Origin: Marinitoga aeolica
GTDB taxonomy: Bacteria > Thermotogota > Thermotogae > Petrotogales > Petrotogaceae
Assembly: GCF_029910535.1 (NCBI RefSeq)
Contig: NZ_CP069362.1
Coordinates: 2,356,001 to 2,420,000 of the forward strand
Direction: 5' to 3'
DNA: 64,000 nucleotides
Part shown: positions 808 to 44,511 of the stretch, piece by piece
Layout: each line of letters begins with the position of its first letter
How positions within the stretch are numbered: the first letter of the stretch is position 1
The notes under the pieces: generated by a model
What the model was told of the DNA's origin: nothing
The model's database searches: none
Seen by the model: the letters and a program-made list of their open reading frames with translations, nothing else
Position numbers and translations under genes: made by a program

Positions 808-3006
808 ATGTTTACTAAAAGAAAAGTAGTCTATTTCATTATACTGCTAATTTTTGTCAGTGTATTAGATTTCTGGATATTTTCAAATGTAAAAAAATCC
901 TATAATTCTGTTTTAAATGATAATTTTTTAAAAACAAGTCATATTATATCCAGATCAATTCCTCAAGATGGAGCAGATTATAAAAAATGGATAAAAAAAT
1001 ATGAAGAAGAAAATGAGAATTTAAAGATAATCTATATTAATGGATTGCCTGGATTTTTTGAAACAACTGATTATTATGATGATAATGACTTATATAATTT
1101 TTATAAAGAAAATTATAATTCTGAAGACTTTAAAAAAGGAATTGAAAGTGCCGAATATAGTGAATTTTACTTCTCAAAACAAGATTATGAGTTTAATAAT
1201 TCAAAATATAGAATTATTTTTGCTCCTATCATAAATGATGATTATGATGTTTTAGGAATAGGTGTATTCTTTTTCAAAATGGATGGATATATGAAATTTT
1301 ATAGACTAGTGAATATTTTTATGTATTCTATAATAATTATATTTGCATTGCTATATGGAATAATAAACTTTTCAAGAGATCCTGTAATGAATTTCATAAT
1401 CTTAACTATATTTATTATAGTAGCACTTTTTACAGCTTATCCCTTATTTGAAGCTGTAAGATTGACGTTTATAAAAAACGGAGAATTTTCCTTAGAGATA
1501 TGGAAAAGAATACTTACCACTAAACAATATTTAAGTGCTTTTTGGGGTAGTATTAAATTAGGAATTTCTACAGCAACTTTATCTACTTTAGTAGGATTTT
1601 TATTTGCATTTGTTTTAGCGCGAACAGGAATTAAAGGTAAAAAATTCTTTAGTACTATGGCGACATTACCTGTTATCTCCCCACCATTTTCTTTAACATT
1701 GTCGATATTACTATTATTTGGGAATAATGGTTTAATTACGAAAAAAATATTAGGTTTACATAATTTTAGTATATATGGTTTAACTGGATTAACTTTAGTT
1801 CAAACAATGGGAATGTTTCCGATAGCTTATTTAACCATGGTTGGTGTACTACATTCTATTGATTCTACTTTAGAAGATGCATCGCTTGATTTAAATGCAT
1901 CTAAATTAAAAACATTTTTAAAGGTAACATTACCTCTTTCAATGCCTGGAATATTAAGTGCGTGGTTATTAGTGTTTACCAACTCATTAGCAGATTTTGC
2001 AAATCCCTTGATTTTATCAGGTAATTATAGAGTATTATCTGTTGAAGCGTATTTAGAAGTTACTGGTATGAATAGATTAGGAAATGGTGCAGCTTTGTCT
2101 ATATTGTTGTTATTGCCTACAATAACCGCTTTTTTGGTTCAAAGATTTTGGGTATCAAAAAAGTCATTTGTAACAGTAACAGGAAAACCATCACCAAGAA
2201 TAACAGAATTGGTTTCAAAACCAGTAAAAATAACTTTAGTAACTTTAATGATTTTTATCATAATATTCTTAATTTCATTATATGGAACTATTGTAGCAGG
2301 ATGTTTCGTAAAGAATTGGGGAATTGATTATACATTCACATTAGAGAATATTAAAGAAGCACTTCAAAGAGGAAAAGATGCTATAACAGATACTGTAACT
2401 CTTGCAAGTCTCGCAACGCCTATAGCTGGTATACTTGCTATGATGACTGCATTGATTTTAGTAAGGAAAAGGTTTAGTGGAAAGCGTATTTTTGAAATAT
2501 TGATTATGGCACCTTTTGCTATTCCGGGTACATTAATAGGTATTAGTTATATTTTAGCATTTAATAAGCCACCTATTATTTTAGTCGGCACAGGAGCAAT
2601 TATTGTTATAAACTATATTATTAGGGAATTACCTGTTGGTGTAGAAGGAGGAGTTGCAGCACTAAGACAAATTGATCCTTCAATAGAAGAAGCAGCTCAA
2701 GATTTAGGTGCAGATGTTCCAACTGTATTTAAAACAGTAGTATTACCACTTTTAAGGCCTGCATTTATTTCTAGTTTATCATATACTTTTGTTAGATCAA
2801 TGACTGCTGTTAGTGCTGTTATATTCTTGATTTCAGCTAAATGGTATCATATTACTGTATTAATATATAATTTCTCTGAAAACTTAAGATTTGGATTAGC
2901 AAGTGTTTTAGCTACAACTTTAATAATAATTGTATTAGCTGCATTTGGAATAATGAGATTATTAGTTAGAGAAAGTGAAACTTTAGAAAAAACAGTTTCT
3001 CAGTGA
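808..3006 (+). CDS. FbpB-like iron(III) ABC transporter permease, two fused MetI domains, with extra N-terminal domain
   Basis: This membrane protein of about 732 residues forms the translocation channel of the uptake system. It contains two binding-protein-dependent permease domains in tandem (roughly residues 240-450 and 520-725), as in FbpB. Each has an EAA-type loop, seen as DSTLEDASLDLNASKLKTF and IEEAAQDLGADVPTVFKTV. Unusually, a first membrane segment at about 7-27 is followed by about 135 polar residues before the next membrane segment, predicting an extracytoplasmic domain. AGGAG at 794-798 lies nine bases before ATG 808; a TTG at 799 is in frame but too close. The stop overlaps the region of the ATPase start. 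Confidence 0.85.
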   Translation: MFTKRKVVYFIILLIFVSVLDFWIFSNVKKSYNSVLNDNFLKTSHIISRSIPQDGADYKKWIKKYEEENENLKIIYINGLPGFFETTDYYDDNDLYNFYKENYNSEDFKKGIESAEYSEFYFSKQDYEFNNSKYRIIFAPIINDDYDVLGIGVFFFKMDGYMKFYRLVNIFMYSIIIIFALLYGIINFSRDPVMNFIILTIFIIVALFTAYPLFEAVRLTFIKNGEFSLEIWKRILTTKQYLSAFWGSIKLGISTATLSTLVGFLFAFVLARTGIKGKKFFSTMATLPVISPPFSLTLSILLLFGNNGLITKKILGLHNFSIYGLTGLTLVQTMGMFPIAYLTMVGVLHSIDSTLEDASLDLNASKLKTFLKVTLPLSMPGILSAWLLVFTNSLADFANPLILSGNYRVLSVEAYLEVTGMNRLGNGAALSILLLLPTITAFLVQRFWVSKKSFVTVTGKPSPRITELVSKPVKITLVTLMIFIIIFLISLYGTIVAGCFVKNWGIDYTFTLENIKEALQRGKDAITDTVTLASLATPIAGILAMMTALILVRKRFSGKRIFEILIMAPFAIPGTLIGISYILAFNKPPIILVGTGAIIVINYIIRELPVGVEGGVAALRQIDPSIEEAAQDLGADVPTVFKTVVLPLLRPAFISSLSYTFVRSMTAVSAVIFLISAKWYHITVLIYNFSENLRFGLASVLATTLIIIVLAAFGIMRLLVRESETLEKTVSQ

Positions 3007-4716: not shown

Positions 4717-5910
4717 TTAATTTTCTTTAACTCTTTTTGCCATTTCTTTAGCTAATTGTCTTAATTTTTCATAATGTTCTTCATGAGCAGAGAATTGTAC
4801 TTCTACTGGATCACAAACCATTTCCCATTTATTTTTCTTAATATAATCTACAATACCTTTTACTCCTCCACCACTCCAACCATATGTGCCAAATACTCCA
4901 AATACTCTATTTTTAATTCCTTTATGTTCTAAATTTATAATTAAATTCTCCATTCTTGGGAATATACCATTATTATATGTATTTGTACCTAATAATACGC
5001 CTTTGAATCTCCAAATTTCGTTTATAATAAATGATTCATGAACTTCTGAAGAATTCATAACTCTTATATTTTTAATTCCTTCATCTGCTAAACATCTAGC
5101 GATGAAATCAGCCATTTTTTCTGTGTTTCCATACATTGAACCATATGCAATAACTACACCTTCTTCAGTTTCATATTTACTCCATTTATCATATAATGAA
5201 ATTATTCTTCCAGGATTTGTTCTCCATACCGGGCCATGTGTTGAAGCTATAATTTTAATTTCTAATCCTGATAATTTTGCCATAGCTCTTTGAACCATTG
5301 GTCCAAATTTTCCAACAATATTAGAATAATATCTTCTTATTTCATTTTCATAATATTCTATATCAACTTCATCATCAAAAACTCCACCATCTAATGTCCC
5401 AAATCCACCAAAAGCATCCCCAGCAAATAAAATCTTTTCAGTTTCATCATATGTCATCATTGTTTCAGGCCAGTGAACCATAGGAGTTAAGTAAAATTTT
5501 AGTTTGTGCTTTCCTAAGTCTAATTCATCTCCATCTTTAACTTCGAGTAAATTAGTATCTATCCCATATAATGCTTTTAAGAATTCAAATGTTTTTTTAT
5601 TTCCAACTATTTTAATATCTGGATATGCTCTTAATATTTCAACTATAGATCCAGAATGATCAGGTTCCATATGATTAATAACGAGGTAATCTAACTTTTT
5701 CCCTTCTAATATTTTGTCAACTTTATTTAAAAAAATATGAGTTTTAGTGGTTTTTACTGTATCAAATAATACAGTTTTTTCATCTTTTATTATATAAGAA
5801 TTATATGAAACTCCTTTTGGTAAAGGCCACATATTTTCAAATAAATGGGTGTCTCTATCATTAACCCCAACATAATATACAGAATCAGTGATGTTTAAAA
5901 TATTATCCAT
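4717..5910 (-). CDS. fprA: Flavodiiron protein (oxygen/nitric-oxide reductase, FprA type)
   Basis: The enzyme reduces O2 to water or NO to N2O in the cytoplasm and protects anaerobes. The N-terminal metallo-beta-lactamase domain carries the diiron ligands in NHMEPDHSG (H80, E82, D84), MVHWPETM, FAGDAFGG and ASTHGPVWR. The C-terminal flavodoxin domain starts near residue 250 with the FMN loop YGSMYGNTEKMADF. At 397 residues it has the standard length of the two-domain family, with no fused rubredoxin. AGGAGGG precedes ATG 5910. The gene appears monocistronic with its own terminator. Confidence 0.93.
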   Translation of the reverse strand: MDNILNITDSVYYVGVNDRDTHLFENMWPLPKGVSYNSYIIKDEKTVLFDTVKTTKTHIFLNKVDKILEGKKLDYLVINHMEPDHSGSIVEILRAYPDIKIVGNKKTFEFLKALYGIDTNLLEVKDGDELDLGKHKLKFYLTPMVHWPETMMTYDETEKILFAGDAFGGFGTLDGGVFDDEVDIEYYENEIRRYYSNIVGKFGPMVQRAMAKLSGLEIKIIASTHGPVWRTNPGRIISLYDKWSKYETEEGVVIAYGSMYGNTEKMADFIARCLADEGIKNIRVMNSSEVHESFIINEIWRFKGVLLGTNTYNNGIFPRMENLIINLEHKGIKNRVFGVFGTYGWSGGGVKGIVDYIKKNKWEMVCDPVEVQFSAHEEHYEKLRQLAKEMAKRVKEN

Positions 5911-15277: not shown

Positions 15278-15544
15278 TCACCCAATATTTTCTTCTAGTT
15301 GCTTTGCAGCAATTATACCACTTCTTAATACATCCCATATACCCATTGCAGAATACAGCTGCATTTTTATTAAGAAAAAAATATTTACCATAGCATATAA
15401 TGTTCCTGCATCACCAAGTTTAACTCCTCTATAAATAATAAAAAGATAAAATATTGCTGATAACAAATTCCTTGAAATATTAGATAACAATTGATCTATT
15501 AAATATACTTTTTTCGCCTGTTCCAGAAATTTTTTGTATATTTT
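15278..15544 (-). pseudogene. Fragment of an ABC exporter transmembrane domain
   Basis: The open segment of about 88 codons reads YKKFLEQAKKVYLIDQLL, then IYRGVKLGDAGTLYAMVN and ends shortly after GIIAAKQLEENIG. This is the transmembrane helix 5-6 region of a type-1 ABC exporter, cut before the ATP-binding domain; its upstream end is a stop codon at 15545-15547. It lies just after the complete exporter pair of operon A, so it is probably the relic of a third exporter gene or of an older copy. Confidence 0.7.
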
Positions 15545-15573: not shown

Positions 15574-17379
15574 TTATTTATTCTTTATATATAATTCCGA
15601 TTGAGCATACCATAAATTTCTATAATATTCTGACCTATTAATCAACTCTTTATGAGTTCCTATATCAATTATTTTTCCATTATCCATAATCACTATCTTA
15701 TTACAATACTTTATAGAAGCTAATCTATGTGTTATTATTATTGCTATTTTTCCTTTGCTTATTTCTTCAAATTTTTCGTATAATTCATTTTCAGCTATCG
15801 GATCGAGTGCTGCTGTTGGTTCGTCGAGTATTATAATATCATAATCTTTAAAAATTCCTCTTCCTATTGCTACTTTTTGCCATTGACCACCTGAAAGTTC
15901 TACACCATCAAATTCCTTTGATAATATTGTATTTATGCCATTAATAAATTTTTTATTATTATAATTTATTCCTGCATAATTCAATGTATCTTTTATTTTT
16001 TCTTCATTATTTTCATTTTTCATATCACTAACAGATATATTTTCTTTCAAAGAAATCTTATATTTATTAAAATTCTGAAATACAGCAGTTCCTCTTCTTC
16101 TTATTGAATCTAAAGATAACAAAGAAGAAGCTATTCCATTATAATATATTTCTCCCCTTTGAGGACTATATAATCCCAATATTAATTTTGATAACGTTGT
16201 TTTTCCAGCCCCATTTTTACCTATAATTGCTATTCTATCTCCTTTTTCTATTTTTAAATTAATATTCTCAATTGCCATTTTCCCTGATGGATACATAAAA
16301 AATATATTTTTTAATTCTATATTTGATATTTCATCTATAGCATTTTTCCTATTTTTCAATTTTTCGTCATAATTTAAAAAGTTTATATATTTTTTTACTT
16401 TTACAAATATTTCTACAGCATTTTGCAGCCTATATTCAAATATTTCTTCAAACAATCCAAATAAATTTGAGATAGATGCATATACAGCTGCGAATGCTCC
16501 AACCGTTATTTTATTATTTATTATTAAATATATACTCAACCCTAAAATGCTCATATACCCAATTATATTTATTAATTTTGATAAGGCTTCTATTTTATTT
16601 AACTTTCTTTGATAGATCAATTTTAAATCATAATAATTATAGTTAGTTTTTTTAAATAGATTAATTATATATTTGGTTGCTCCTAATGTACGTGTTTCCT
16701 TTAAATAATTTTTATTTTTTATATATGATGAATATATTTCTTTTTCTCTTCTCAAAGGGGCATGTGTTTCTTCAAGTTTTTCATAATACTTTTTCTTTAT
16801 AATTTGTGAAATTATTGTTGGGACAAATATAAATAATATACTTATACCTAATAAAGGATTTAAGGATATCATGTATAGCTCTATAAATATATAATATGGA
16901 ATATACAAAAATAATATATCCATTATTATATTTAATAAACCCCTTACTGATTTAGCACCGATTATTGCAGAATTAATTATATTTCTATTATATGGAACAT
17001 TAAAATAATTTGGTGAAATTTTTGAAATTTTTAAATTTAAGTTTTTTAATACAGTTTTTAATGTGATATCATGATAATATTCTCCAAAATACTCTGATAT
17101 TCCACTTGAAACTTCTGATAGTATAGCAAAAAACATCAAATATATAAGATTTAATAATATCATTTTGTATTCACTATTATTATTAAAGTATTTAATAGCA
17201 TTATCGAACACCTTTTGCATTTGAACTGTAACCATGCCTAAAGATATCGCATCAACTATTGAAAACATGTATTGCAAAAAAAATCTTATAGGAGATATTT
17301 TAGCAATATCAATAAATACATTGAATAGTTTTGTTGTATTATTCACCATACCATCTTCTTTGTTTTTCGAACATTTCAT
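15574..17379 (-). CDS. ABC exporter, membrane-ATPase half-transporter 2 of RiPP operon A
   Basis: A type-1 exporter of about 601 residues. The transmembrane domain with six helices spans roughly residues 20-330. The ATPase domain has Walker A GKNGAGKTT, signature ELSGGQWQK, Walker B IIILDEPTAALD and switch THRLAS. The LSGGQWQ signature is common in peptide and lantibiotic exporters. There is no C39 leader peptidase domain. ATG 17379 has AGAAGG upstream and overlaps the preceding exporter by 41 bases; ATG 17349 is the alternative. It probably pairs with the upstream half to export peptide A. Confidence 0.87.
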   Translation of the reverse strand: MKCSKNKEDGMVNNTTKLFNVFIDIAKISPIRFFLQYMFSIVDAISLGMVTVQMQKVFDNAIKYFNNNSEYKMILLNLIYLMFFAILSEVSSGISEYFGEYYHDITLKTVLKNLNLKISKISPNYFNVPYNRNIINSAIIGAKSVRGLLNIIMDILFLYIPYYIFIELYMISLNPLLGISILFIFVPTIISQIIKKKYYEKLEETHAPLRREKEIYSSYIKNKNYLKETRTLGATKYIINLFKKTNYNYYDLKLIYQRKLNKIEALSKLINIIGYMSILGLSIYLIINNKITVGAFAAVYASISNLFGLFEEIFEYRLQNAVEIFVKVKKYINFLNYDEKLKNRKNAIDEISNIELKNIFFMYPSGKMAIENINLKIEKGDRIAIIGKNGAGKTTLSKLILGLYSPQRGEIYYNGIASSLLSLDSIRRRGTAVFQNFNKYKISLKENISVSDMKNENNEEKIKDTLNYAGINYNNKKFINGINTILSKEFDGVELSGGQWQKVAIGRGIFKDYDIIILDEPTAALDPIAENELYEKFEEISKGKIAIIITHRLASIKYCNKIVIMDNGKIIDIGTHKELINRSEYYRNLWYAQSELYIKNK

Positions 17380-19120
17380 AATATACACCTTCTTTTCTAA
17401 TTAAATCATCATGAGTTCCCCTTTCGATGATTTTTCCATTTGAAAAAACTATTATTTCGTCTGCATATCTTATTCCACCTAGTCTATGTGTAATTAAAAT
17501 CTTTATCGATTTATATGGTACAGAAAAAAATCTTTCAAATATTTCTCTTTCTGCTATGGGATCAAGTGCCGATGTTGGTTCATCAAATATTTGTATTGGA
17601 GCATCTCTATATAAAGCTCTTGCCATAATTACTTTTTGCCACTGACCTTCTGATAAGTTATAACCTTTCCCATTAATGTATCCCAGTTTAGTTTTTTCTT
17701 TTTCTGGTAATTTTTTCATTATTTTATCTACACCAGTTAAATGAATTATATTATTATATAGTTCATTATTATTCTTTTTTACATCTCCTATTTTTATATT
17801 TTCCTCTAAAGTTAAAGGATATTTTGTATAGTCTTGATAAACAATAGAAAAATATTTATACCATTCTTCTATATTTGTGTTTTTTTGCTTTTTATTGTTA
17901 ATGTATATTTCACCTTCGTATTCTTCATATAGTCCGAGTAATAATTTTATTATTGTTGTTTTTCCTGCTCCATTTTCCCCTACAAACGCATATGTTTTTC
18001 CTTTTTCTAACTTAATATTAATATTATTTAATATCCATTTATTTGAGTTTGGATATTTAAATGACACATTTTTAAATTCTATTGCTTTTATATCTTTAAT
18101 ATTTTTCGTTTTTAAATATATATCTTTTTCTATCTCTGGTAATTTTATATACTTTTGATAATCTTTTATATAATTTATACGTCTTACTAAATCCTTTACT
18201 ATATTTGAAAATGTCCAGGACATTGGATGTATTAAATTAAATACAGCACCTGTTATACTTATAAACATTCCTGAGCTTATTTTGCCAGATTTTAAAACGA
18301 ATAATAAACTTGCCGAAATACCAAAAGCTAATACAGCCATTAATATACTTAATATTTTTACTCTTGCAATATTTTTCATTGTTGCTTTAATATCTATTCT
18401 TCTAGCTTTTTCATATAAATTTTCAAATTTTTTTGCTATATTATCGCCATAATCGAATAATACTCTTTCATCTGCCATTTCACCCGTATTTAACATTAAA
18501 TCATAAACTTTTGCTTTACGAAAATACTTCATAGATTCTGTATATGATTCATATTCGCGTTCTCCACTATAATAACCTATTATCGCCATTAGTATTAATA
18601 ATATAAGCACTATGGTTCCTATTAGTATGCTACTTTTTATTATTATTGCTGATATTGATAATATTTCTACTATTATTTTTATAAATGCACTTATTTCATT
18701 TAATCCAATTGTTATTGCATTTTCAGAATTATCATATATTCTTTCAATTAATTCATAATTTTCATGATTTTCTAATATGTCATATCTTAGTTTTGCATTT
18801 TTCTTTAAAATATCTTTTTCAAATTGATTATCTACTTTTTTAGATATTCTGATATAAATTTGTTTTGATATAAGATTTATAAAATAATTTATTAAGAACA
18901 TCATAAAAAACAAAAAAGATATTAATATGAATTTTTTATCTATGGTTTTATTATTAATAAAAATTTGAACAGCATCAATAAATAATGCTGTAATTATTAT
19001 TCTTATCCATGGCATAGCATAGCTCAATGTTTCTATAATAAAATATCCTATTGATAATAATGGTGATTTTTTAAAAGAGTATATTATAATGTATTTAAAT
19101 AATAATTTTATATTTTCCAT
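17339..19120 (-). CDS. ABC exporter, membrane-ATPase half-transporter 1 of RiPP operon A
   Basis: A type-1 ABC exporter of 593 residues. Six membrane helices occupy about residues 10-330. The ATPase domain has Walker A GENGAGKTT, a slightly altered signature NLSEGQWQK, Walker B IQIFDEPTSALD and THRLGG. LSEGQ instead of LSGGQ suggests one degenerate site in a heterodimer with the next gene. AAAGGA precedes ATG 19120, and a hairpin separates it from the precursor peptide gene upstream, so exporter mRNA may be attenuated relative to precursor mRNA. Confidence 0.87.
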   Translation of the reverse strand: MENIKLLFKYIIIYSFKKSPLLSIGYFIIETLSYAMPWIRIIITALFIDAVQIFINNKTIDKKFILISFLFFMMFLINYFINLISKQIYIRISKKVDNQFEKDILKKNAKLRYDILENHENYELIERIYDNSENAITIGLNEISAFIKIIVEILSISAIIIKSSILIGTIVLILLILMAIIGYYSGEREYESYTESMKYFRKAKVYDLMLNTGEMADERVLFDYGDNIAKKFENLYEKARRIDIKATMKNIARVKILSILMAVLAFGISASLLFVLKSGKISSGMFISITGAVFNLIHPMSWTFSNIVKDLVRRINYIKDYQKYIKLPEIEKDIYLKTKNIKDIKAIEFKNVSFKYPNSNKWILNNINIKLEKGKTYAFVGENGAGKTTIIKLLLGLYEEYEGEIYINNKKQKNTNIEEWYKYFSIVYQDYTKYPLTLEENIKIGDVKKNNNELYNNIIHLTGVDKIMKKLPEKEKTKLGYINGKGYNLSEGQWQKVIMARALYRDAPIQIFDEPTSALDPIAEREIFERFFSVPYKSIKILITHRLGGIRYADEIIVFSNGKIIERGTHDDLIRKEGVYYEMFEKQRRWYGE

Positions 19121-19142: not shown

Positions 19143-19172
19143 AATTCCTACAGGCTATTTGCCTGCAGGATT
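19143..19172 (-). terminator. Attenuator hairpin between precursor A and exporter genes
   Basis: Arms AATTCCTACAGGC and GCCTGCAGGATT pair with one mismatch and a bulge around a five-base loop. No long T-tract follows, so partial termination or RNA processing is likely, leaving extra copies of the precursor message. Confidence 0.6.
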
Positions 19173-19178
19173 CCTAAT

Positions 19179-19283
19179 TTAAAAAAATACACTTCTTGAT
19201 TTTCCGTTACAAGTTCCACCTTTACATCCCTGAGTTTGGACAACTATTTTTGATACTTTTATAATAGGTTTTTTATATTTCAT
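19179..19283 (-). CDS. RiPP precursor peptide A (34 aa)
   Basis: A 34-residue frame starts at ATG 19283 after AGGTG. Its first half is lysine-rich and hydrophobic, as in a leader (KKPIIKVSKIVV). The second half is a small core with two cysteines, QGCKGGTCNGKSRSVFF. It lies directly between the radical SAM maturase and the exporters on the same strand, the usual place for a substrate. Size, position and cysteines make it the likely target of the maturase; the type of cross-link is unknown. I recall a comparable arrangement in Thermotoga maritima at TM1316. Confidence 0.78.
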   Translation of the reverse strand: MKYKKPIIKVSKIVVQTQGCKGGTCNGKSRSVFF

Positions 19284-19287
19284 TTTT

Positions 19288-20325
19288 TCACCTCCCTTCC
19301 TTTTCGCATAAATATTTAAATACTTCTGCATTTCTTTTATCTAGAGACGAACAACCTAAAAAGGTGTTATCTTCAGAGTAAGCGAACCCTGGACATCTAT
19401 TACAAAAATCTTTTAAATAACAAGTTTTACAATCTTTTAAATCATATTTTGTTAAAGAATATATATATTTGAGTTTGTTAGAGTTATACCAAATATCTTT
19501 TAAATTTTGTTTTTTTAAATCTCCAATTTTATATAAAAAAGAATTACAAGGATATACATTTTTATTAGAATCTATATATATACTATATTTTAAATTAGGG
19601 CAAAGATCGTCTGAATTGTTATTTTTAAAAATTCCCTTTTCTATTTGAATTGGAATATCTTTATAAAACTTTAATAAATCATTAAAATCAAGAGAATTTT
19701 TTTTAGGAGTTTCATCACCATTTGTTTTCGATATAATTATTGGATTTGGTGAATATTTAAATCCATTTTTTATACAAAATTCTTGTAACTCTTTGTATGA
19801 ATCTTTATTTTGTTTCATCAAAGGGGTTTTAATTTCTATATTGATACCTTGTTCTTTCATTTTCATAATATTTGATAATATTCTTTTTAAAGATCCTTTT
19901 ACTCCTGTAATCATATCATTAATTTTTTCATTTAATGAAAAAATAGTTGTAGAAAATTCCGTAATAAATAAATCAGAAAGACTTTTAATTTGTTGATCAT
20001 TAATTATTGTAGCATTACTTAGTAAAGTTACACGAAATCCCATAGCCCTAGCCCTTTTTACAATATCTATTATATCTTTCCTAAGAAAAATTTCTCCACC
20101 AGTTAGAACTAATTCAAAAGTTCCCAGCTTTCTTAATTGCTTAAATAAATGAATAATAAATTCATATTCTAATCCCATGTTATTATGTTCTGGAATATAA
20201 CAATGTAAACATTTCAAATTACATAAATTTAATATTTCAATAGTTGCAATTAATGGAATTCTTTCATTATAAGCTTTTTGGACAATATTTTGATAAGAAA
20301 AAGAATTCTCATCATATATCCTCAA
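19288..20325 (-). CDS. Radical SAM/SPASM peptide maturase A
   Basis: The SAM-cluster motif CNLKCLHC (C35, C39, C42) is followed by LTGGEIFLRKDI, and the C-terminus has SPASM-type cysteines (LCPNLKYS, VYPCNSF, DCKTCYLKDFCNRCPG, LGCSS) for auxiliary clusters. Such enzymes form thioether or carbon-carbon links in precursor peptides. At 345 residues it lacks the N-terminal extension of the other maturases in the window, consistent with a separate PqqD-like partner upstream. The start is apparently TTG 20325, overlapping the upstream stop as GTTTGA, with GAGGTGG before it. Confidence 0.88.
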   Translation of the reverse strand: MRIYDENSFSYQNIVQKAYNERIPLIATIEILNLCNLKCLHCYIPEHNNMGLEYEFIIHLFKQLRKLGTFELVLTGGEIFLRKDIIDIVKRARAMGFRVTLLSNATIINDQQIKSLSDLFITEFSTTIFSLNEKINDMITGVKGSLKRILSNIMKMKEQGINIEIKTPLMKQNKDSYKELQEFCIKNGFKYSPNPIIISKTNGDETPKKNSLDFNDLLKFYKDIPIQIEKGIFKNNNSDDLCPNLKYSIYIDSNKNVYPCNSFLYKIGDLKKQNLKDIWYNSNKLKYIYSLTKYDLKDCKTCYLKDFCNRCPGFAYSEDNTFLGCSSLDKRNAEVFKYLCEKEGR

Positions 20326-20606
20326 ACCACCTCTACAATTTCTTGATTTGCAAGAACTTTAACAAAATCTATAAAATCTTTTTGAATAAATTTATCTGAG
20401 ATAAAATTAAATTTGTTTTTTAAATTTATCAAACTCTTTTTTATAGTTTCACACTTTATCAAATAAATCCAAAATTCATATGCTATATCATCTAATAAAA
20501 ATATATATTCAGTTCTTTCATCTATAACATAAACACAATTATCATAAATTTGCCATGAAATCCATTTACATATTTCAATTTTCTTATTTAGTATAAAATC
20601 GTCCAT
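20322..20606 (-). CDS. PqqD-like RiPP recognition element protein
   Basis: A 94-residue protein with the pattern of PqqD-type recognition domains: a beta hairpin (VYVIDERTEYIFLLDDIAYEFW) followed by helices and ending in VKVLANQEIVEVV. Such domains bind the leader peptide and present it to the radical SAM enzyme encoded next. AGGAGGA precedes ATG 20606; the frame stays open further upstream but without a site. Four-base overlap with the maturase gene indicates translational coupling. The assignment rests on size, pattern and position. Confidence 0.72.
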   Translation of the reverse strand: MDDFILNKKIEICKWISWQIYDNCVYVIDERTEYIFLLDDIAYEFWIYLIKCETIKKSLINLKNKFNFISDKFIQKDFIDFVKVLANQEIVEVV

Positions 20607-20739
20607 TATAATCCTCCTTCTACAAAAATAAAAATTTAGAAAATTAGTCAAAAATAATTAATAATAAAATTTAAGTTTTAAATTCACAAAATTTTAAAAA
20701 TAGATAAGAATATAATTAACTTTTTAGTTTATAAACACA

Positions 20740-20768
20740 TTGTATTACAAAAAATCATATGTTATAAT
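20740..20768 (+). promoter_or_regulatory. Promoter facing the P1 gene from its 3' side
   Basis: TTGTAT, 17 bases, TATAAT. The -35 lies in an odd palindrome TTGTATTACAA. The element is kept in all four modules at the same place. RNA from here would be antisense to P1 and could continue as a leader of the TPR gene. Confidence 0.6.
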
Positions 20769-20800
20769 GTTAATAAAACAATTGAGTCTAGAGATGTTTT

Positions 20801-20932
20801 TTATTCATAAATTTCAGTTTGAATTTGAGGATTTGATGAATTGGTTGATGAATAATCATAATCATCTTCAGCATATAGTATATTTGAGAATAGAAAAAGT
20901 ATAATTAATATTGATACTATAATTTTTTTCAT
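20801..20932 (-). CDS. Small secreted peptide P1 (43 aa), candidate pheromone precursor
   Basis: ATG 20932 follows GGGAGGTG. The product begins with a signal sequence, MKKIIVSILIILFLF then SNILYA, and leaves a polar tail EDDYDYSSTNSSNPQIQTE ending in IYE. No cysteine is present, so it is not a substrate like the RiPP precursors. Three paralogues occur in this window, each at the same position before a RiPP operon and opposite a TPR-like gene. Length, signal and variable C-terminus resemble Phr, PapR and AimP precursors, whose C-terminal residues are released as signals; this role is inferred. Confidence 0.72.
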   Translation of the reverse strand: MKKIIVSILIILFLFSNILYAEDDYDYSSTNSSNPQIQTEIYE

Positions 20933-20957
20933 CCCCATCACCTCCCAATTATTATTT

Positions 20958-20985
20958 ATTTTAGCAATTCTAACATGATTTTCAA
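20958..20985 (-). promoter_or_regulatory. Promoter of P1
   Basis: On the minus strand TTGAAA, 16 bases, TAAAAT, then about 25 bases to the ATG. The same boxes and spacing stand before P2, P3 and P4, with a conserved CATG in the spacer. Confidence 0.7.
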
Positions 20986-21209
20986 CTATTACTATAATGT
21001 TAACAAAGCTTTATTTATCAGGGTTTTGTTTTTACGATAAAATTACATTTATGTTATAAAGTTTTTTGTAACATTATTTGTGAATTGCATAATACATTTT
21101 AATAGTATATTTTATATACTAATTCTTTTTATTTCACAATCTAAAAAATAGCAAGAATTATGATTTTAAATTTTTGTAAATTATGTAACTATTTGGTTGG
21201 TGATAATAT

Positions 21210-22807
21210 ATGAAGATTAATAATATGTTTCTAAAAAAGATTATAGATATAGTCGAGTACGGAAGTTTTTCAAAACCAATTGTGAATTATATTGAAAGTA
21301 ATATTAACGATATTTCATTAAAATATTATATTTCTTTATTAAAATCAAAATGGGAGATGGATTTTTCTTCTGCTATTTACTATGCAAATAACTCTATTTC
21401 AACAACAACAACAACAACAATACTAAAGGAACTTTCAAGATATGAACTTGTGTTGTTGTATTCAAGAATGAATAATTTTGATAAATCAAAAAAAGTTTTC
21501 AATACACTAAAAAATAATATAATCAATATTTCACCGTATGCAAGAAGAATAATTATACCTGGGTTAAAAGCCTTATCAGAGAAATTAAATCAAAATTTTG
21601 AGATTTTAAAATGTTATGGTGATTTATATGAGGAAAGTTATGTTCAAAAAGCAATAATAGAATATTCAAAGGCCAGAAGATTATTGTCTGAAAAAAATAT
21701 GATGAAGCTTATAATAATTTTTTAAAAGGTTTTTCATATGCTAAAAAATTTAATCACCCTTCAATGATGTGTGCAGGTTTAAATTCTGCAACGTGGTGGA
21801 TAAGGAATGAAGATAAGAAAAAAGCTTTAATTATTGCTAATTTACTGGAATATTATATTGGTTATTATTTCGATGATTTTAATTATATATCTAATTGGAT
21901 TGATACTATTATAAGTGTAAAAGAATTAAACAATGATATAAGAGTTTTTGGCCTTTTAGAAATTATACATAACGCTTTAATATTATTTCCGGATTTAAAA
22001 ATACTTATTGAAAATATGCAATGCCCAGATTTTAAAATAGAAGAATATACACTAAATAAAAAATTGAATTATTTTATTTATAAAAAAAGTAAAAAAAGAT
22101 TGAAAGGTAAAACATTAAATGTTGTGGAATTAAAAAGATTTATTCAAAAATATGGTTTAACATATAAGAAAACATATCCATATGAAATAAAAAATGAATT
22201 ATATAAAATACATATAAATAAAACTTTTAAAGAAAACATAATCAAATTTAAAAAGAAAAATAAAATAAAAATACAAGAATTATTTTTTGCAACATATTCA
22301 TCATTAATAGAAAAACCATATTTTACAAAAAGTTGCATTTTAAAATTGGTTTTTGAAGGAGATAAAGATAAAATCATTAAATATTTCTCAAGTTATTATG
22401 AGAAAATGTATTTTTTTAACTTAATGCTATCTGAATTTGAGGTTAAAGAATTTGAAAAAAGGATAATGAATCCTGATGATTTTGAAAAGATAAAACCTGA
22501 TGTATCTCCATTTTTCATATCAAGAAAAAAATTAATATTTAATCTTTTAAAAAATGCGAAAAATTTTAAAGAATTTATTCTTAAATATTTCGAACTCAAC
22601 GAGGAAGAAATAAGAACTTTTGATGTGTTTTTAAGAAATTGTGTTCGTTATGATATAATATGGCCTATTATTCCAAAAGTTGATGGTAATTTAAAATCTT
22701 TCGCTTTAAAATATAATATTACTCAAAAACGCGTTGCTTTAGGATATTATTCTTTTGAAGACAATGAAAGACTTTTTCTTGATTCTATTATTGAGAAGTT
22801 TTTATAA
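21210..22807 (+). pseudogene. TPR-like regulator/receptor gene, copy 1 (frameshifted)
   Basis: The reading frame breaks once: after SKARRLLSEK a run of seven A (21691-21697) shifts into a stop at 21723-21725. One extra A would restore EKKYDEAYNNFLKGF and join the N-terminal 162 residues to the 347-residue open frame that continues to 22807. The intact paralogue at 39120 shows the continuous protein. The N-terminal part is a TPR-like helical repeat (YELVLLYSRMNNFDKSKKVF), with a striking STTTTTTIL. The C-terminal 200 residues are nearly shared by all copies. GGTTGGTGAT precedes ATG 21210. It may be dead, or rescued by slippage on the A run. Confidence 0.75.
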
Positions 22808-27000: not shown

Positions 27001-27028
27001 AAAATTTTAATTTTAGTTTATAAACACA

Positions 27029-27057
27029 TCGTATTACAAAAAATCATATGTTATAAT
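27029..27057 (+). promoter_or_regulatory. Promoter facing the P2 gene from its 3' side
   Basis: TCGTAT, 17 bases, TATAAT. It matches the module 1 element except for one base in the -35 box, which may weaken it. Confidence 0.5.
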
Positions 27058-27089
27058 GTTAATAAAACAATTGAGTCTAGAGATGTTTT

Positions 27090-27221
27090 TTATTCATAAA
27101 TTTCAGTTTGAATTTGAGGATTTGATGAATTGGTTGATGAATAATCATAATCATCTTCAGCATATAGTATATTTGAGAATAGAAAAAGTATAATTAATAT
27201 TGATACTATAATTTTTTTCAT
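27090..27221 (-). CDS. Small secreted peptide P2 (43 aa), identical to P1
   Basis: The coding sequence equals that of P1, so the product has the same signal sequence and the same tail ending QIQTEIYE. It stands before operon B as P1 stands before operon A. Identical peptides would put both operons under one signal if the pheromone model holds. Confidence 0.72.
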   Translation of the reverse strand: MKKIIVSILIILFLFSNILYAEDDYDYSSTNSSNPQIQTEIYE

Positions 27222-27246
27222 CCCCATCACCTCCCAATTATTATTT

Positions 27247-27274
27247 ATTTTAGCAATTCTAACATGATTTTCAA
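27247..27274 (-). promoter_or_regulatory. Promoter of P2
   Basis: Minus-strand TTGAAA, 16 bases, TAAAAT, identical to the P1 promoter. Confidence 0.7.
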
Positions 27275-27498
27275 CTATTACTATAATGTTAACAAAGCTT
27301 TATTTATCAGGGTTTTGTTTTTACGATAAAATTACATTTATGTTATAAAGTTTTTTGTAACATTATTTGTGAATTGCATAATACATTTTAATAGTATATT
27401 TTATATACTAATTCTTTTTATTTCACAATCTAAAAAATAGCAAGAATTATGATTTTAAATTTTTGTAAATTATGTAACTATTTGGTTGGTGATAATAT

Positions 27499-29102
27499 AT
27501 GAAGATTAATAATATGTTTCTAAAAAAGATTATAGATATAGTCGAGTACGGAAGTTTTTCAAAACCAATTGTGAATTATATTGAAAGTAATATTAACGAT
27601 ATTTCATTAAAATATTATATTTCTTTATTAAAATCAAAATGGGAGATGGATTTTTCTTCTGCTATTTACTATGCAAATAACTCTATTTCAACAACAACAA
27701 CAACAACAATACTAAAGGAACTTTCAAGATATGAACTTGTGTTGTTGTATTCAAGAATGAATAATTTTGATAAATCAAAAAAAGTTTTCAATACACTAAA
27801 AAATAATATAATCAATATTTCACCGTATGCAAGAAGAATAATTATACCTGGGTTAAAAGCCTTATCAGAGAAATTAAATCAAAATTTTGAGATTTTAAAA
27901 TGTTATGGTGATTTATATGAGGAAAGTTATGTTCAAAAAGCAATAATAGAATATTCAAAGGCCAGAAGATTATTGTCTGAAAAAAATATGATGAAGCTTA
28001 TAATAATTTTTTAAAAGGTTTTTCATATGCTAAAAAATTTAATCACCCTTCAATGATGTGTGCAGGTTTAAATTCTGCAACGTGGTGGATAAGGAATGAA
28101 GATAAGAAAAAAGCTTTAATTATTGCTAATTTACTGGAATATTATATTGGTTATTATTTCGATGATTTTAATTATATATCTAATTGGATTGATACTATTA
28201 TAAGTGTAAAAGAATTAAACAATGATATAAGAGTTTTTGGCCTTTTAGAAATTATACATAACGCTTTAATATTATTTCCGGATTTAAAAATACTTATTGA
28301 AAATATGCAATGCCCAGATTTTAAAATAGAAGAATATACACTAAATAAAAAATTGAATTATTTTATTTATAAAAAAAGTAAAAAAAGATTGAAAGGTAAA
28401 ACATTAAATGTTGTGGAATTAAAAAGATTTATTCAAAAATATGGTTTAACATATAAGAAAACATATCCATATGAAATAAAAAATGAATTATATAAAATAC
28501 ATATAAATAAAACTTTTAAAGAAAACATAATCAAATTTAAAAAGAAAAATAAAATAAAAATACAAGAATTATTTTTTGCAACATATTCATCATTAATAGA
28601 AAAACCATATTTTACAAAAAGTTGCATTTTAAAATTGGTTTTTGAAGGAGATAAAGATAAAATCATTAAATATTTCTCAAGTAATTATGAGAAAATGTAT
28701 TTTTTTAACTTAATGCTATCTGAATTTAAGGTTAAAGAAATTGAGAAAAGGATAATGAATCCTGATGATTTTGAAAAGATAAAACCTAATGTATCTCCAT
28801 TTTTTGTATCAAGAAAAAAACTCATCTTTAATCTTTTAAAAAATGCGAAAAATTTTAAAGAATTTATTCTTAAATATTTCGAACTCAACGAGGAAGAAAT
28901 AAGAACTTTTGATGTGTTTTTAAGAAATTGTGTTCGTTATGATATAATATGGCCAATTACGCCTTATCCTAAAGGAAAGGTTCGTGATTTTGCAATTAAA
29001 TATGGTCTTGGTCAAAAACGCGTTGCTTTAGGATATTATTCTTTTGAAGATGCTGAACGAAAACTTCTTGATTCTATTATTGAGAAGTTTTTAAGATTAT
29101 AA
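27499..29102 (+). pseudogene. TPR-like regulator/receptor gene, copy 2 (frameshifted)
   Basis: It carries the same seven-A run (27980-27986) and the same early stop as copy 1, while the rest is open to 29102. The region up to about residue 395 is identical to copy 1. Afterwards it agrees with copy 3 (SNYEKMYFF, KVKEIEKRIM) and then has its own segment PITPYPKGKVRDFAIKYGL before the shared KRVALGYYSFED. This mosaic shows recombination among copies. Function as for copy 1. Confidence 0.75.
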
Positions 29103-35779: not shown

Positions 35780-36055
35780 GTGGCTGGAAAAGTAAGTTTA
35801 TTATTCTGGAATATCTATATTATTACCAGTGCAGTGATCAACAACACACCAATCGGCATCATTACAATCTCCTAAGTCAATAATCGTGCACCAATCAGGT
35901 GCAGGGCTACAATTTCCACCATCATAACCTGAACAATAATCAAAAGGAAGAGTACAATCACTATTCAAAGAATTCTTAGTTGTTCCATTAATAACCTTTA
36001 TATGTTTCATAATATATCAACCTCCATTTAAAACTTGCTTTTCTTTTCCAGCCAC
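35780..36055. repeat. Inverted repeats flanking precursor gene C1
   Basis: GTGGCTGGAAAAGTAAGTTT at 35780-35799 is the inverse of 36031-36055, differing by one base and an extra CTTTT. The arms enclose exactly the precursor gene and its ribosome binding site. In RNA they could pair across the whole gene; in DNA they could be ends of an invertible or exchangeable cassette. Confidence 0.75.
35801..36010 (-). CDS. RiPP precursor peptide C1 (69 aa, seven cysteines)
   Basis: ATG 36010 follows GGAGG. A short basic leader (KHIKVINGTTKN) precedes a core with seven cysteines at 19, 26, 34, 41, 49, 55 and 60, spaced four to seven residues apart. Three fit C-x3-D (CSGYD, CTIID, CNDAD) and the others have Asp two to five residues later. 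C-x3-D repeats are the substrate pattern of freyrasin-type ranthipeptide synthases, which link Cys sulfur to the beta carbon of Asp. The repeats PDWC and ADWC suggest internal duplication. It sits between maturase C1 and an ABC-2 pump. Confidence 0.82.
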   Translation of the reverse strand: MKHIKVINGTTKNSLNSDCTLPFDYCSGYDGGNCSPAPDWCTIIDLGDCNDADWCVVDHCTGNNIDIPE

Positions 36056-37363: not shown

Positions 37364-38593
37364 TCATCTCCCTACTTTTAATTTTTCTACTCCTATTTTT
37401 GTTAGGTTGCAAGAAATACTTCGGCTTTTACTTTTTGTTAATAATTCATATGGGCATCCACCACCGCATATATTTCTCAATTCGCATAAACCGCAATCTT
37501 CTTCTATTTTTTTAACTACTTTCTTATAAAATTCCTTTTTATAGTTAATAAATTCTTCCCATTGCATCCCCACTTCTCCAAGTTCATAGTCTTTTTCACC
37601 TGTGAATCTCTGGCATGGGTATATTTTTCCATCTATATCTATTGATACTATTCCCAACCCCGCTCCACATGGATATTTTTTAATTTCTCCTTTTTTTATA
37701 GTTTCCCATACTCCACTTATATTTAACGGGATAAACCTTTTATCTTTTTCTTCTATTATTTCTTCAACTTCTTTGTATAATTTTTTCTTTTCTTTTTCTG
37801 TCCATTTTTTTGTGTAAGGGTATGATGCAATCGCAAAAGAATAGCCACCAACATTTAGCTCTTTTATAAAATGTTCTGCTATTTTTTTAATTTCTATTTT
37901 CTGATTTGTTACTGTTGCTCTAACGTTTAACTTTTTCCTTTTTTCCAGTATTAACTCTATATTTTCTGCTATTTTTTCATATGATCCCTTTCCTCCAACA
38001 AATGGCCTTTGAAAATTTTGTATATACTCACAACCATCTATACTTAATGTTAATGAAAAATTTTCTTTGATTAAAAAGTCTATTATTTCTTTATCCATTA
38101 TCGTCCCATTAGTGGTTATTGAATATCCAATCTTTTTGTTATATTTCTTTCCTAATTTTTTTGATAATGCCACGCTTTCTTTTATTTTTTTGAATTCAAG
38201 TAATGGTTCTCCACCAAAAAACGTTATTGTTATTTTTTTCTTTTTTGTATTTGAAAATATATATTCTAAACTTTCTTTTATCAATTTCATATTCATACTT
38301 TCTGGTTTCTCTTTATGAGCATAGCAGTATATACATTCAAGATTACATGCTTTTGTTATATTTAATATAATATTTGATGGTTCAAATATTATGTCTGAAT
38401 TATAGAATTTTTCGCTTTCTTTTATTTTTTTATTGATTATATTTTTTAATGTTTTTATATCTTTTTCAACATCTTTATTTTTTTTATTTTCTGTAAGATG
38501 TGAATAGGCTATTTCATCTAGTTCGACTAATGTTACACTATCAAGGTCCAATAGATACTTTCTTTTATTATTTTGATAGAGTTTATATTTCAT
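37364..38593 (-). CDS. Radical SAM/SPASM peptide maturase C1
   Basis: A 409-residue enzyme with CNLECIYC (C83, C87, C90), ITFFGGEPLLEF and SPASM cysteines in YPCGAGLGIVSID, IYPCQRFTGEKD, DCGLCELRNICGGGCPYE and ISCNLT. The N-terminal 70 residues are a small domain of the type seen in maturase B. It is the first gene of operon C1 and presumably acts on the seven-cysteine precursor two genes downstream. AAAGGAG precedes ATG 38593. Confidence 0.89.
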   Translation of the reverse strand: MKYKLYQNNKRKYLLDLDSVTLVELDEIAYSHLTENKKNKDVEKDIKTLKNIINKKIKESEKFYNSDIIFEPSNIILNITKACNLECIYCYAHKEKPESMNMKLIKESLEYIFSNTKKKKITITFFGGEPLLEFKKIKESVALSKKLGKKYNKKIGYSITTNGTIMDKEIIDFLIKENFSLTLSIDGCEYIQNFQRPFVGGKGSYEKIAENIELILEKRKKLNVRATVTNQKIEIKKIAEHFIKELNVGGYSFAIASYPYTKKWTEKEKKKLYKEVEEIIEEKDKRFIPLNISGVWETIKKGEIKKYPCGAGLGIVSIDIDGKIYPCQRFTGEKDYELGEVGMQWEEFINYKKEFYKKVVKKIEEDCGLCELRNICGGGCPYELLTKSKSRSISCNLTKIGVEKLKVGR

Positions 38594-38895: not shown

Positions 38896-39119
38896 GCATT
38901 TTTGGCTATTTTATAATTCTTTATTTATGGTATTTTTAATTTTTATATTTTCTCATTTTTTTATTAACTCCATCTTGTTACTTTATGTTAATATTAGCTA
39001 TTTCCTTTTTCTTAATATTTTTAATTTAATCTTCTTCATTTTGTTTTTGTAAAAAATTACAAAATAAATCAGAGATTTTTAAGTAAAAATATGATTACAA
39101 ATTTATTGAGGTGTTTTTA

Positions 39120-40718
39120 ATGAAAAATAATATTTCTTTAAAATCCTTGATTGATATCATAAGTTTTGGATATTATTCTTATCCAATTATTAATTTCTTA
39201 TATTTAAATATAAATGATATTTCTTTAAAATATTATCTTTTGTTATTAAAATCCAAATGGAAAAAAGATTATTATTTAGCTATTGATTATTCTAAAAAAA
39301 CTATTTCAACAACAACAACAACAACAATATTAAGAGAACTTGCAAGATTTGAACTTGTTTCTTTATACAATAAAGTTGGGAAATATGATTTAGCAAAAAA
39401 AGAAATTAATATTTTAAAAAATAATTTTGATAAACTTCCATCATATGCAAGATATTTAATGGTACCAGGGTTAAACTTGCTCAATAAATCATATAACATA
39501 ACTGATAATTTTAAAGTTTATTCAGACAATTATATTGAAAATGATTTAGATAAAGCTATTTTGATTTATTCAAAAGCAAGAGATTTCATTAAAGAGAAAG
39601 AATATTCTAAAGCATATAAAAGATTTATTGAGGGATTTTTTCTTTCTAAAAATTTCCCTCATCCTACTATGATTTGTAATGGTTTAAATGGTGCTGCGTG
39701 GTGGATAAGAGAAGTAGATAAGAAGAAAGCGTTAGTTGTAGCTGATTTATTAGAGTATTATGTTGGTTATTATTTTGAAGATTTACCTAAGATATATAAT
39801 TGGTTTGATACTATTTTTGAAGTAAAGAAAATTAATAATGATATAACAATATTTGATATATCGAGTATTGTTATTAAGCTAAATAAATTAAATAAGGTTA
39901 AAATAAAAAAACAGTTTTTCCATTTTATTCCTGATATTTCTTCATCAACGTATAATATAACCAATGAATTAAAAAATTATATTTTAAAATATGTTGATTT
40001 AATGGTTAAAAAAGGAATAATAAATTCCAAAAGTATATTAAAAATCATAAATTCAAAAAAAATAAGTTATACCTCTAGAAAACCATATGCTATAAAAAAT
40101 GAATTGTATAAAATGTATATAAATAAAACTTTTAAAGAAAACATAATCAAATTTAAAAAGAAAAATAAAATAAAAATACAAGAATTATTTTTTGCAACAT
40201 ATTCATCATTAATAGAAAAACCATATTTTACAAAAAGTTGCATTTTAAAATTGTTTTTTGAAGGAGATAAAGATAAAATCATTAAATATTTCTCAAGTAA
40301 TTATGAGAAAATGTATTTTTTTAACTTAATGCTATCTGAATTTAAGGTTAAAGAAATTGAGAAAAGGATAATGAATCCTGATGATTTTGAAAAGATAAAA
40401 CCTGATGTATCTCCATTTTTCATATCAAGAAAAAAATTAATATTTAATCTTTTAAAAAATGCGAAAAATTTTAAAGAGTTTATTCTTAAATATTTCGAAC
40501 TCAATGAGGAAGAAATGAGAACTTTTGATATGTTTTTAAGAAATGGTGTTCGTTATGATATAATATGGCCTATTATTCCAAAAGTTGATGGTAATTTGAA
40601 ATCTTTCGCTTTAAAATATAATATTACTCAAAAACGAGTTGCTTTAGGATATTATTCTTTTGAAGATGCTGAACGAAAACTTCTTGATTCTATTATTGAG
40701 AATTTTGTGAAAATATAG
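39120..40718 (+). CDS. TPR-like regulator/receptor, intact copy 3 (about 532 aa)
   Basis: The only complete copy of the family in this window. The first 330 residues are an alpha solenoid with TPR-like helices (LARFELVSLYNKVGKYDLAK, AKRF-type segments such as KEYSKAYKRFIEGFF) and the conserved STTTTTTIL encoded by seven CAA repeats. From about residue 335 the DNA is nearly identical to copies 1 and 2 and ends in KYNITQKRVALGYYSFED, which could be a small helical effector or DNA-binding part. GAGGTG selects ATG 39120. No HTH is recognised at the N-terminus, unlike classical RRNPP proteins. A role as receptor for peptide P3 is inferred. Confidence 0.72.
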   Translation: MKNNISLKSLIDIISFGYYSYPIINFLYLNINDISLKYYLLLLKSKWKKDYYLAIDYSKKTISTTTTTTILRELARFELVSLYNKVGKYDLAKKEINILKNNFDKLPSYARYLMVPGLNLLNKSYNITDNFKVYSDNYIENDLDKAILIYSKARDFIKEKEYSKAYKRFIEGFFLSKNFPHPTMICNGLNGAAWWIREVDKKKALVVADLLEYYVGYYFEDLPKIYNWFDTIFEVKKINNDITIFDISSIVIKLNKLNKVKIKKQFFHFIPDISSSTYNITNELKNYILKYVDLMVKKGIINSKSILKIINSKKISYTSRKPYAIKNELYKMYINKTFKENIIKFKKKNKIKIQELFFATYSSLIEKPYFTKSCILKLFFEGDKDKIIKYFSSNYEKMYFFNLMLSEFKVKEIEKRIMNPDDFEKIKPDVSPFFISRKKLIFNLLKNAKNFKEFILKYFELNEEEMRTFDMFLRNGVRYDIIWPIIPKVDGNLKSFALKYNITQKRVALGYYSFEDAERKLLDSIIENFVKI

Positions 40719-44172: not shown

Positions 44173-44397
44173 CCATTACTGTAATGTTAACAAAGCTCTA
44201 TTTATAAGGGTTTTCTTTTTGCGATAAAATTACATTTCTGTTATAAAATTCATGTAACATTATTTTGTGAATTATATAATACTTTTTAATAGTTTATTTT
44301 ATATACTAATTCTTTTTGTTTCACATTGTAAAAAATAGCAAAAATTTTGGTTTTAAATTTTTGTGAAGTATGTAACTATTTGGTTGGTGATAATATA

Positions 44398-44511
44398 TGA
44401 AGATTAATAATATGTTTCTTAAAAAGATTATATATAGTCGAATACGGAAGTTTTTCATAACCAATTATGAATTATATTGATTCTATTATTGAGAAGTTTT
44501 TAAGATTATAA
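44398..44511 (+). pseudogene. TPR gene copy 4, internal deletion remnant
   Basis: The first 75 or so bases match the 5' end of copies 1 and 2 (ATGAAGATTAATAATATG), then the sequence jumps to the last 35 bases (GATTCTATTATTGAGAAG) of copy 2. About 1.5 kb is missing. The join is at a short TTGA shared by both ends. The upstream promoter region is still conserved. Confidence 0.8.

Follow-up and report, generated by a model that had tools for sequence, protein, structure and literature searches.

We conclude that a 34-codon gene on the minus strand of the window, i.e. the whole 64,000-nucleotide stretch of Marinitoga aeolica DNA analysed here, very probably encodes a peptide that is cross-linked and exported by the enzymes encoded next to it. 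Our best explanation, which we consider likely, is that the predicted product of this locus (operon A) is a PqqD-assisted thioether RiPP, with sactionine bonds favoured, that would be exported by a two-gene ABC system and whose operon lies behind a cassette consisting of a short peptide gene and a regulator gene.

The gene for precursor A occupies positions 19179 to 19283 on the minus strand and, translated from 19283 to 19179, reads MKYKKPIIKVSKIVVQTQGCKGGTCNGKSRSVFF; the plus-strand reading of the same positions contains stops and was rejected. The sequence-only reading had described, without giving the strand, a very short gene of 34 aa in a gap between maturase and exporter genes, with two cysteines four residues apart. 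This description agrees with the DNA: the frame is exact, the gene is flanked by the maturase gene (19288-20325) on one side and ABC gene 1 (17339-19120) on the other, and the cysteines, C20 and C25, are separated by four residues. The ATG lies 4 bases after the maturase stop, and the Shine-Dalgarno sequence (GGGAGGTG) is located within the final maturase codons; the layout is nearly identical in a homologous operon of another genus of the family (genome G018).

The gene order of the G018 operon is that of operon A, and the encoded proteins are 48% (PqqD-like protein), 68% (maturase), 68% (ABC gene 1) and 71% (ABC gene 2) identical to those of the window, while the precursors are 68-70% identical (E 3.9e-12). 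The stretch GTCNGKSRSVF is unchanged between the two precursors, yet 6 of its 11 codons carry a difference, every one of them silent; a serine switch between TCA and AGT is among these. Over codons 2-33, pS is 0.35 and pN is 0.24; because the serine switch inflates pN, the whole-gene ratio of pS to pN taken alone is weak evidence. A chance ORF was nevertheless rejected because the homologue is found at the same place and the changes in the core are silent. The core had been given as GCKGGTC; this segment is not the whole core, since GTCNGKSRSVF is best conserved and KG is GK in the homologue.

In reading order, operon A consists of the PqqD-like gene (20606-20322), the maturase gene (20325-19288), the precursor gene, an RNA hairpin (19170-19146) and two ABC genes (19120-17339 and 17388-15574), all on the minus strand. 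The assignment of a maturase of its own to the precursor is supported by the homologous operon and by Pfam, in which the 345 aa protein matches Radical_SAM (2.2e-21) and SPASM (7.6e-9). It has a CxxxCxxC motif at residue 35 and a SPASM-type Cys cluster from residue 299. As had been proposed, it lacks an N-terminal extension: in the window's five other maturases, this motif begins only at residues 80-102, and Pfam detected no PqqD domain in any of the five, N-terminal extensions included. The separate PqqD-like gene (20322-20606, minus strand, 94 aa), also proposed from the letters alone, holds up as well, and none was noticed in the ORF listings beside the other five maturases. Its stop overlaps the maturase start by 4 bases (TTGA in the window, ATGA in G018). 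The window's protein had no match in a Pfam search; the G018 orthologue matched Pfam PqqD with E 2.5e-4 and 21.7 bits (cut-off 23.4), and a profile of the two proteins matched a Macrococcoides PqqD protein in hhalign (E 2e-5, probability 77%). Two features of radical SAM RiPPs are found together, i.e. a short conserved precursor gene that adjoins a radical SAM/SPASM maturase gene and, as recognised via the orthologue and hhalign, a leader-binding RRE in the form of a separate PqqD-like gene.

A terminator-like scan placed a terminator- or attenuator-like hairpin 3' of the precursor stop (19146-19170, minus strand) with a z of -4.36 in the window and -4.26 at the same place in G018; 0 of 200 shuffles were as stable in either case, and the stem sequence differs between the two. 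ABC gene 1 (17339-19120, minus strand) encodes 593 aa with a match to ABC_tran (4.4e-29), and ABC gene 2 (15574-17388, minus strand), which overlaps gene 1, encodes 604 aa with matches to ABC_tran (4.8e-28) and ABC_membrane (4e-5). A hydrophobic 70 aa ORF without a Pfam match directly follows the second ABC gene (15278-15490, minus strand); it was considered as an ABC remnant and dropped, as BLAST against ABC proteins gave nothing at E<=1e-3.

We infer the following course for the binding step, the type of bond and its acceptors, the removal of the leader and the signalling. The PqqD-like protein would hold a leader of approximately residues 1-18 and offer a core of approximately residues 19-33 to the radical SAM/SPASM maturase, which would abstract hydrogen from acceptors that probably lie in the conserved NGKSRSVF half; these acceptors would then be joined to C20 and C25 by thioethers, with the sactionine linkage (sulphur to alpha-carbon) favoured. 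The products of the two ABC genes would export the peptide and, because Pfam detected no peptidase domain in either ABC protein, the leader would be cut off by a protease encoded outside of the operon. The hairpin after the precursor stop probably allows an excess of the upstream genes over the exporter. Finally, operon A would most likely be switched by signalling through a secreted peptide and a TPR-type regulator.

In the window, each of the four RiPP loci (A, B, the C/D block and E; the C/D block was counted as one locus by our own grouping) is preceded, on its own strand, by an ORF of 43-44 aa with a signal-type N terminus (20932-20801, 27221-27090, 38849-38715 and 44126-43995). The ORF in front of operon A (20801-20932, minus strand) encodes a short peptide of the secreted type, MKKIIVSILIILFLFSNILYAEDDYDYSSTNSSNPQIQTEIYE, which is a candidate signal propeptide and belongs to a family of the genus in which 20 distinct sequences share the C-terminal motif SxNPQIQxE with the S, the N and the second Q invariant; this set comprised the 16 of 20 fetched peptide genes of the genus that had a readable frame under a rule of our own (4 were dropped) and five from the window's genome. 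Divergent from the peptide genes are regulator ORFs, which are broken at 21210-22807 and 27499-29102 and intact at 39111-40718 (535 aa), while a short ORF at 44397-44480, divergent from the peptide of locus E, resembles an N-terminal regulator remnant. The TPR-type regulator gene beside operon A (21210-22807, plus strand) is divided into two ORFs by a frameshift at an A7 run (positions ~21691-21697), as judged from the reading frames and the intact homologue, and the copy at locus B has the same frameshift. Over 2085 bases, the cassettes of loci A and B (~20722-22804 and 27011-29093) share 97.8% identity, suggesting that one regulatory block was copied in front of two different RiPP operons. 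The frameshifted regulator copy beside operon A counts against our best explanation; slippage or phase variation is possible at the A7 run or at a Thr run (STTTTTT) in the regulator, the length of which varies among relatives.

Relatives of the regulator are present in 54 of 103 genomes and 29 of 38 genera of the phylum (E<=1e-6), and a profile built from four peptide sequences has matches, which include signal sequences of longer proteins, in 34 of the 103 genomes (E<=0.01). Among the matches listed, 65 peptide matches lie outside of the genus, 42 of them in open frames no longer than 95 aa. At least 31 of these 42 have a listed regulator match that is divergent from them and no more than 1 kb away (16 genomes), and some of the 11 unpaired ones may also have regulator partners; in longer frames, 1 of 23 peptide matches was paired with a listed regulator match. 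We also examined the flanks of 40 N-terminally complete regulator matches that were picked by hand, with most of those near contig ends and the surplus beyond 40 left out; three flanks were too short and were dropped, and the remaining 37 overlap in part. A divergent small ORF of the signal type was present within 800 bases in 17 of these 37 flanks and on the same strand in none of the 37; the strict home-made signal rule used was positive in 5 of 400 control tests of a window and strand. Radical SAM genes were found in 17 of the 34 flanks of at least 7 kb, always on the side of the peptide, whereas 20 control regions of 8.2 kb contained none. Similarly, at 20 annotated loci, whose selection rested in part on a peptide already seen there, regulators of at least 370 aa had a peptide beside them in 23 of 28 cases and a radical SAM gene within 8 kb in 17 of 28, and no radical SAM gene was found on the strand of the regulator. 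At L069, L072 and L073, there are regulators without nearby radical SAM genes, with or without a peptide, and the cassette may therefore control other loci too.

In G090, which was taken as Thermotoga maritima, one stretch (L068) contains, in a row, a gene for a regulator, an ORF of the signal type (5104-5277), an ORF encoding a Cys peptide of 31 aa (MQKMPKPVVPNDYLNPGKGCGGAGLVCGWCG, 5354-5449), a gene for a radical SAM protein and ABC genes. We take this locus to be TM1315-TM1319, with the 31 aa Cys peptide presumably being TM1316. It resembles operon A in phylum, in combining a radical SAM gene with a Cys peptide and ABC genes, and in its divergent regulator of the same family; it differs in that the maturase is of another type (G090 contained no match to maturase A at 1e-35) and in that the precursor lies upstream of the maturase and is, by eye, unrelated in sequence.

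Among 19 aligned regulator relatives, Pfam detected TPR_12 in 9 (best 1.3e-4) and the Cro/C1-type HTH_26 in 3 (best 4.5e-7). The window copy matched no Pfam family, and the HTH segment is partly missing in the window's genus according to the alignment. The second PDB match of the regulator profile was the HipB HTH over 279-334 (E 0.071), and none of the 7 PDB matches at E<=10 was an RRNPP protein. In a structure model of the regulator (mean pLDDT 45.9), approximately the first 130 residues only were mostly above 50, and a fold search gave no match at E<=0.001, with NprR as an insignificant match (E 0.13-0.27). Because of low pLDDT or the lack of a significant fold match, neither this model nor that of the PqqD-like protein (mean pLDDT 40.5) was used as evidence.

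The criteria for RRNPP systems include a propeptide gene of 10-100 aa that neighbours the receptor gene, secretion via Sec, and a receptor of ~250-500 aa with TPRs (PMC10075063). The 43-44 aa ORFs provide such a small propeptide gene beside the receptor gene at all four loci of the window. Like Rgg/SHP and RRNPP systems, the cassette has a small propeptide gene of the secreted type that adjoins a gene for a TPR-type regulator, and radical SAM RiPP operons lie beside it. Unlike them, it is found outside of the Firmicutes, and its regulator has ~530 aa and an HTH that is located in the middle and, within the window's genus, degenerate; sequence kinship to solved RRNPP receptors, which is not among the five criteria, is not detectable. 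The pair of secreted-type peptide and regulator looks like a switch for cell-to-cell signalling that would act on radical SAM peptides. More broadly, and with chances that we consider even, the Thermotogota may have a peptide quorum-sensing family of their own, in which a propeptide divergent from a TPR/HTH regulator, with an RRNPP-like build and without detectable kinship, would switch on radical SAM peptide loci including operon A and TM1316; this family would be an independent counterpart of the Rgg/SHP control of RaS-RiPPs in streptococci and would have spread by copying of cassettes within genomes.

The chief competitor of such signalling, to which we give somewhat less than even chances, is that the short peptide and the TPR protein divergent from it do not signal as a pair; the peptide could instead be a small protein with a role in the envelope or in immunity, and the TPR protein could have another target. 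The signal-type N-termini were called by the home-made rule and export is a prediction; this, together with the degenerate HTH, the Pfam result for the window copy and the lack of a radical SAM gene within 8 kb of some cassettes, speaks for the competitor. It accounts less well for the recurrence of the divergent pairing across genera, for the conservation of the peptide in its C-terminal motif rather than in its hydrophobic part, and for the relatives of the regulator with matches to both TPR and Cro/C1-type HTH families.

With respect to the product of operon A, both precursors had a single NCBIfam match, at thresholds of E<=0.1 for that of the window and E<=10 for that of G018; this was the KIS RaS-RiPP model (NF050044), with E 0.0011 and 18.6 bits in the window and E 0.00054 and 19.5 bits in G018; residues 13-30 of each precursor align to model positions 18-35. 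None of 10 shuffled precursors matched any NCBIfam model. Because both scores are far below the curated cut-off of 70, precursor A was not filed as KIS. At genome scale the model is useless, because at E<=1 it matched 3 of 7 genomes of the genus but also 6 of 14 control genomes. The SSH RaS-RiPP model (NF050043, cut-off 45 bits) was matched by neither precursor. The closest named relatives found for maturase A are the two maturases of a plasmid locus of Macrococcoides bohemicum (39% and 37%, BLAST E ~1e-64 to 1e-65), which also contains a PqqD gene and an ABC gene; by contrast, these two match the other five maturases of the window with E 4e-9 to 0.07. The 40 aa peptide of that locus passes the SSH RaS-RiPP model with 86.4 bits against the cut-off of 45. 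Operon A resembles SSH/KIS RaS-RiPPs in maturase kinship, a separate PqqD gene, an ABC exporter and a short precursor, and differs from them in that its precursor scores below the KIS cut-off and does not match SSH and that its host is outside of the Firmicutes. Moreover, the Macrococcoides SSH locus has two maturases and operon A has one, and, unlike at streptococcal RaS-RiPP loci, no Rgg/SHP gene was recognised at operon A. The interpretation given in the sequence-only reading is partly supported: it was right in outline and incomplete, having missed the kinship to RaS-RiPPs of the streptococcal type and the upstream cassette.

The best PDB sequence match of maturase A is the sactipeptide maturase SkfB (E 1.9e-14), and the StsB sactipeptide-maturase model aligns to its residues 31-309; because of this enzyme kinship, sactionine is our best guess for the bond. 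The best NCBIfam scores were to heme and other non-RiPP enzymes over the radical SAM half and are silent on bond type. Sactipeptides whose RRE is stand-alone or fused (SkfB/SKF, streptosactin GggB, subtilosin AlbA) share with operon A a radical SAM/SPASM maturase, a core with Cys and ABC export; operon A differs in having only two Cys, a small Gly/Thr-rich Cys loop and a separate RRE, and its sactionine bond is a prediction from sequence. A sactipeptide-type locus has been noted in the Thermotogae, i.e. Tmel_0409 of Thermosipho melanesiensis (PMC4289311).

A product modified by the radical SAM enzyme without sactionine, with thioethers to beta- or gamma-carbons (ranthipeptide type) or with one of the carbon-carbon or ether links that other RaS-RiPP subfamilies have, is possible and in our view rather unlikely. 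The second PDB match of maturase A, SuiB (5v1q, E 6.5e-8), which is a radical SAM enzyme and which we take to be a Lys-Trp enzyme, fits such a product. Links also differ across RaS-RiPP subfamilies, with sactionine, beta-thioether, Lys-Trp, Arg-Tyr and ether links described, and the KIS and SSH products are listed as uncharacterised (PMC13361665). However, both Cys are conserved in the G018 homologue, and maturases of the PapB ranthipeptide type are absent from the 25 best models for maturase A while they are present for maturases B and D. Elsewhere in the window, a Cys/Asp-rich ORF of 69 aa in which the spacing Cys-x3-Asp occurs several times (35801-36010, minus strand) lies near a PapB-like maturase gene (37364-38593, minus strand; 262 bits against the PapB model, cut-off 340), and the two likely represent a locus of the ranthipeptide type.

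The precursor and maturase A were each found in 2 of 21 genomes of the family, in both cases the window's own and G018. At 1e-35, maturase A matched one further genome among the 103 of the phylum (a longer protein, 35%), and we conclude from this distribution that operon A is rare and patchy. In the stretch of G018 that was read upstream of the operon, there was no peptide/regulator cassette, which counts against our best explanation. A decaying or silent mobile acquisition, neither expressed nor regulated in this strain, is improbable: while the genus's 6 other genomes contain no maturase A relative at E<=1e-40 and the adjacent regulator copy is frameshifted, every frame of operon A is open and conserved and the conserved core is rich in silent changes.

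A contig scan for wider relatives of maturase A gave 10 loci, the one with the best E-value being in Treponema putidum at 29%; the others were 21-39% identical over all or part of the protein and were not used for the core. The Treponema putidum relative (L019 4451-7754) is longer, possibly RRE-fused, and follows a Cys-containing ORF that ends in MKYEKPEVVAQNSSNGSFAAGCPANDNGGPISCKNCERTE. A plasmid search gave 9 records with maturase A matches and no match to precursor A or the regulator; E. coli, Salmonella and Photobacterium plasmids have a radical SAM gene that is longer than that of maturase A and 28-29% identical to it, and in 2 of the 3 plasmids recombinase genes are close to this gene. 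Viral contigs contained one partial match to maturase A and no relative of the regulator, and phages contained no maturase A match. Another 34 aa Cys peptide, MQGVKVIKKPKSKLSSIFTNNDGCTNTNCNCNGK, is encoded in G000:C1 near 1734804-1734906 (L002 ~1501-1605, minus strand); its gene is followed by a hairpin-like repeat and preceded by a gene for a peptide of the secreted type.

Judged by its sequence, precursor A adds a new member to the radical SAM RiPPs, a known kind of product, from a phylum that is mostly thermophilic, and its core scores below every curated family cut-off that we tried. The placement of such a precursor behind a phylum-wide peptide/regulator cassette is a new arrangement. Frock et al. 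in 2013 reportedly linked the TM1315-TM1319 locus with its peptide TM1316 to stationary phase. Density-dependent peptide signalling has also been described in T. maritima (Johnson 2005, cited in PMC6022435). These growth-phase and density reports fit a density signal, and neither proves the cassette. Quorum sensing by receptor and propeptide is treated as a trait of Firmicutes (PMC10075063, PMC9765709); among the literature titles covered, a scope that mostly left out subscription papers, none described such a peptide/regulator system in the Thermotogota, and RRNPP literature with Thermotogota terms was, by its listing, a phage-plasmid paper only. If the cassette is a signalling system, quorum sensing by receptor and propeptide would extend to another phylum. 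In that case, the cassette regulator would also be a candidate for the sensor of the peptide signals that reflect population density in T. maritima, and the cassette could account for the growth-phase response of the RiPP locus in this species.
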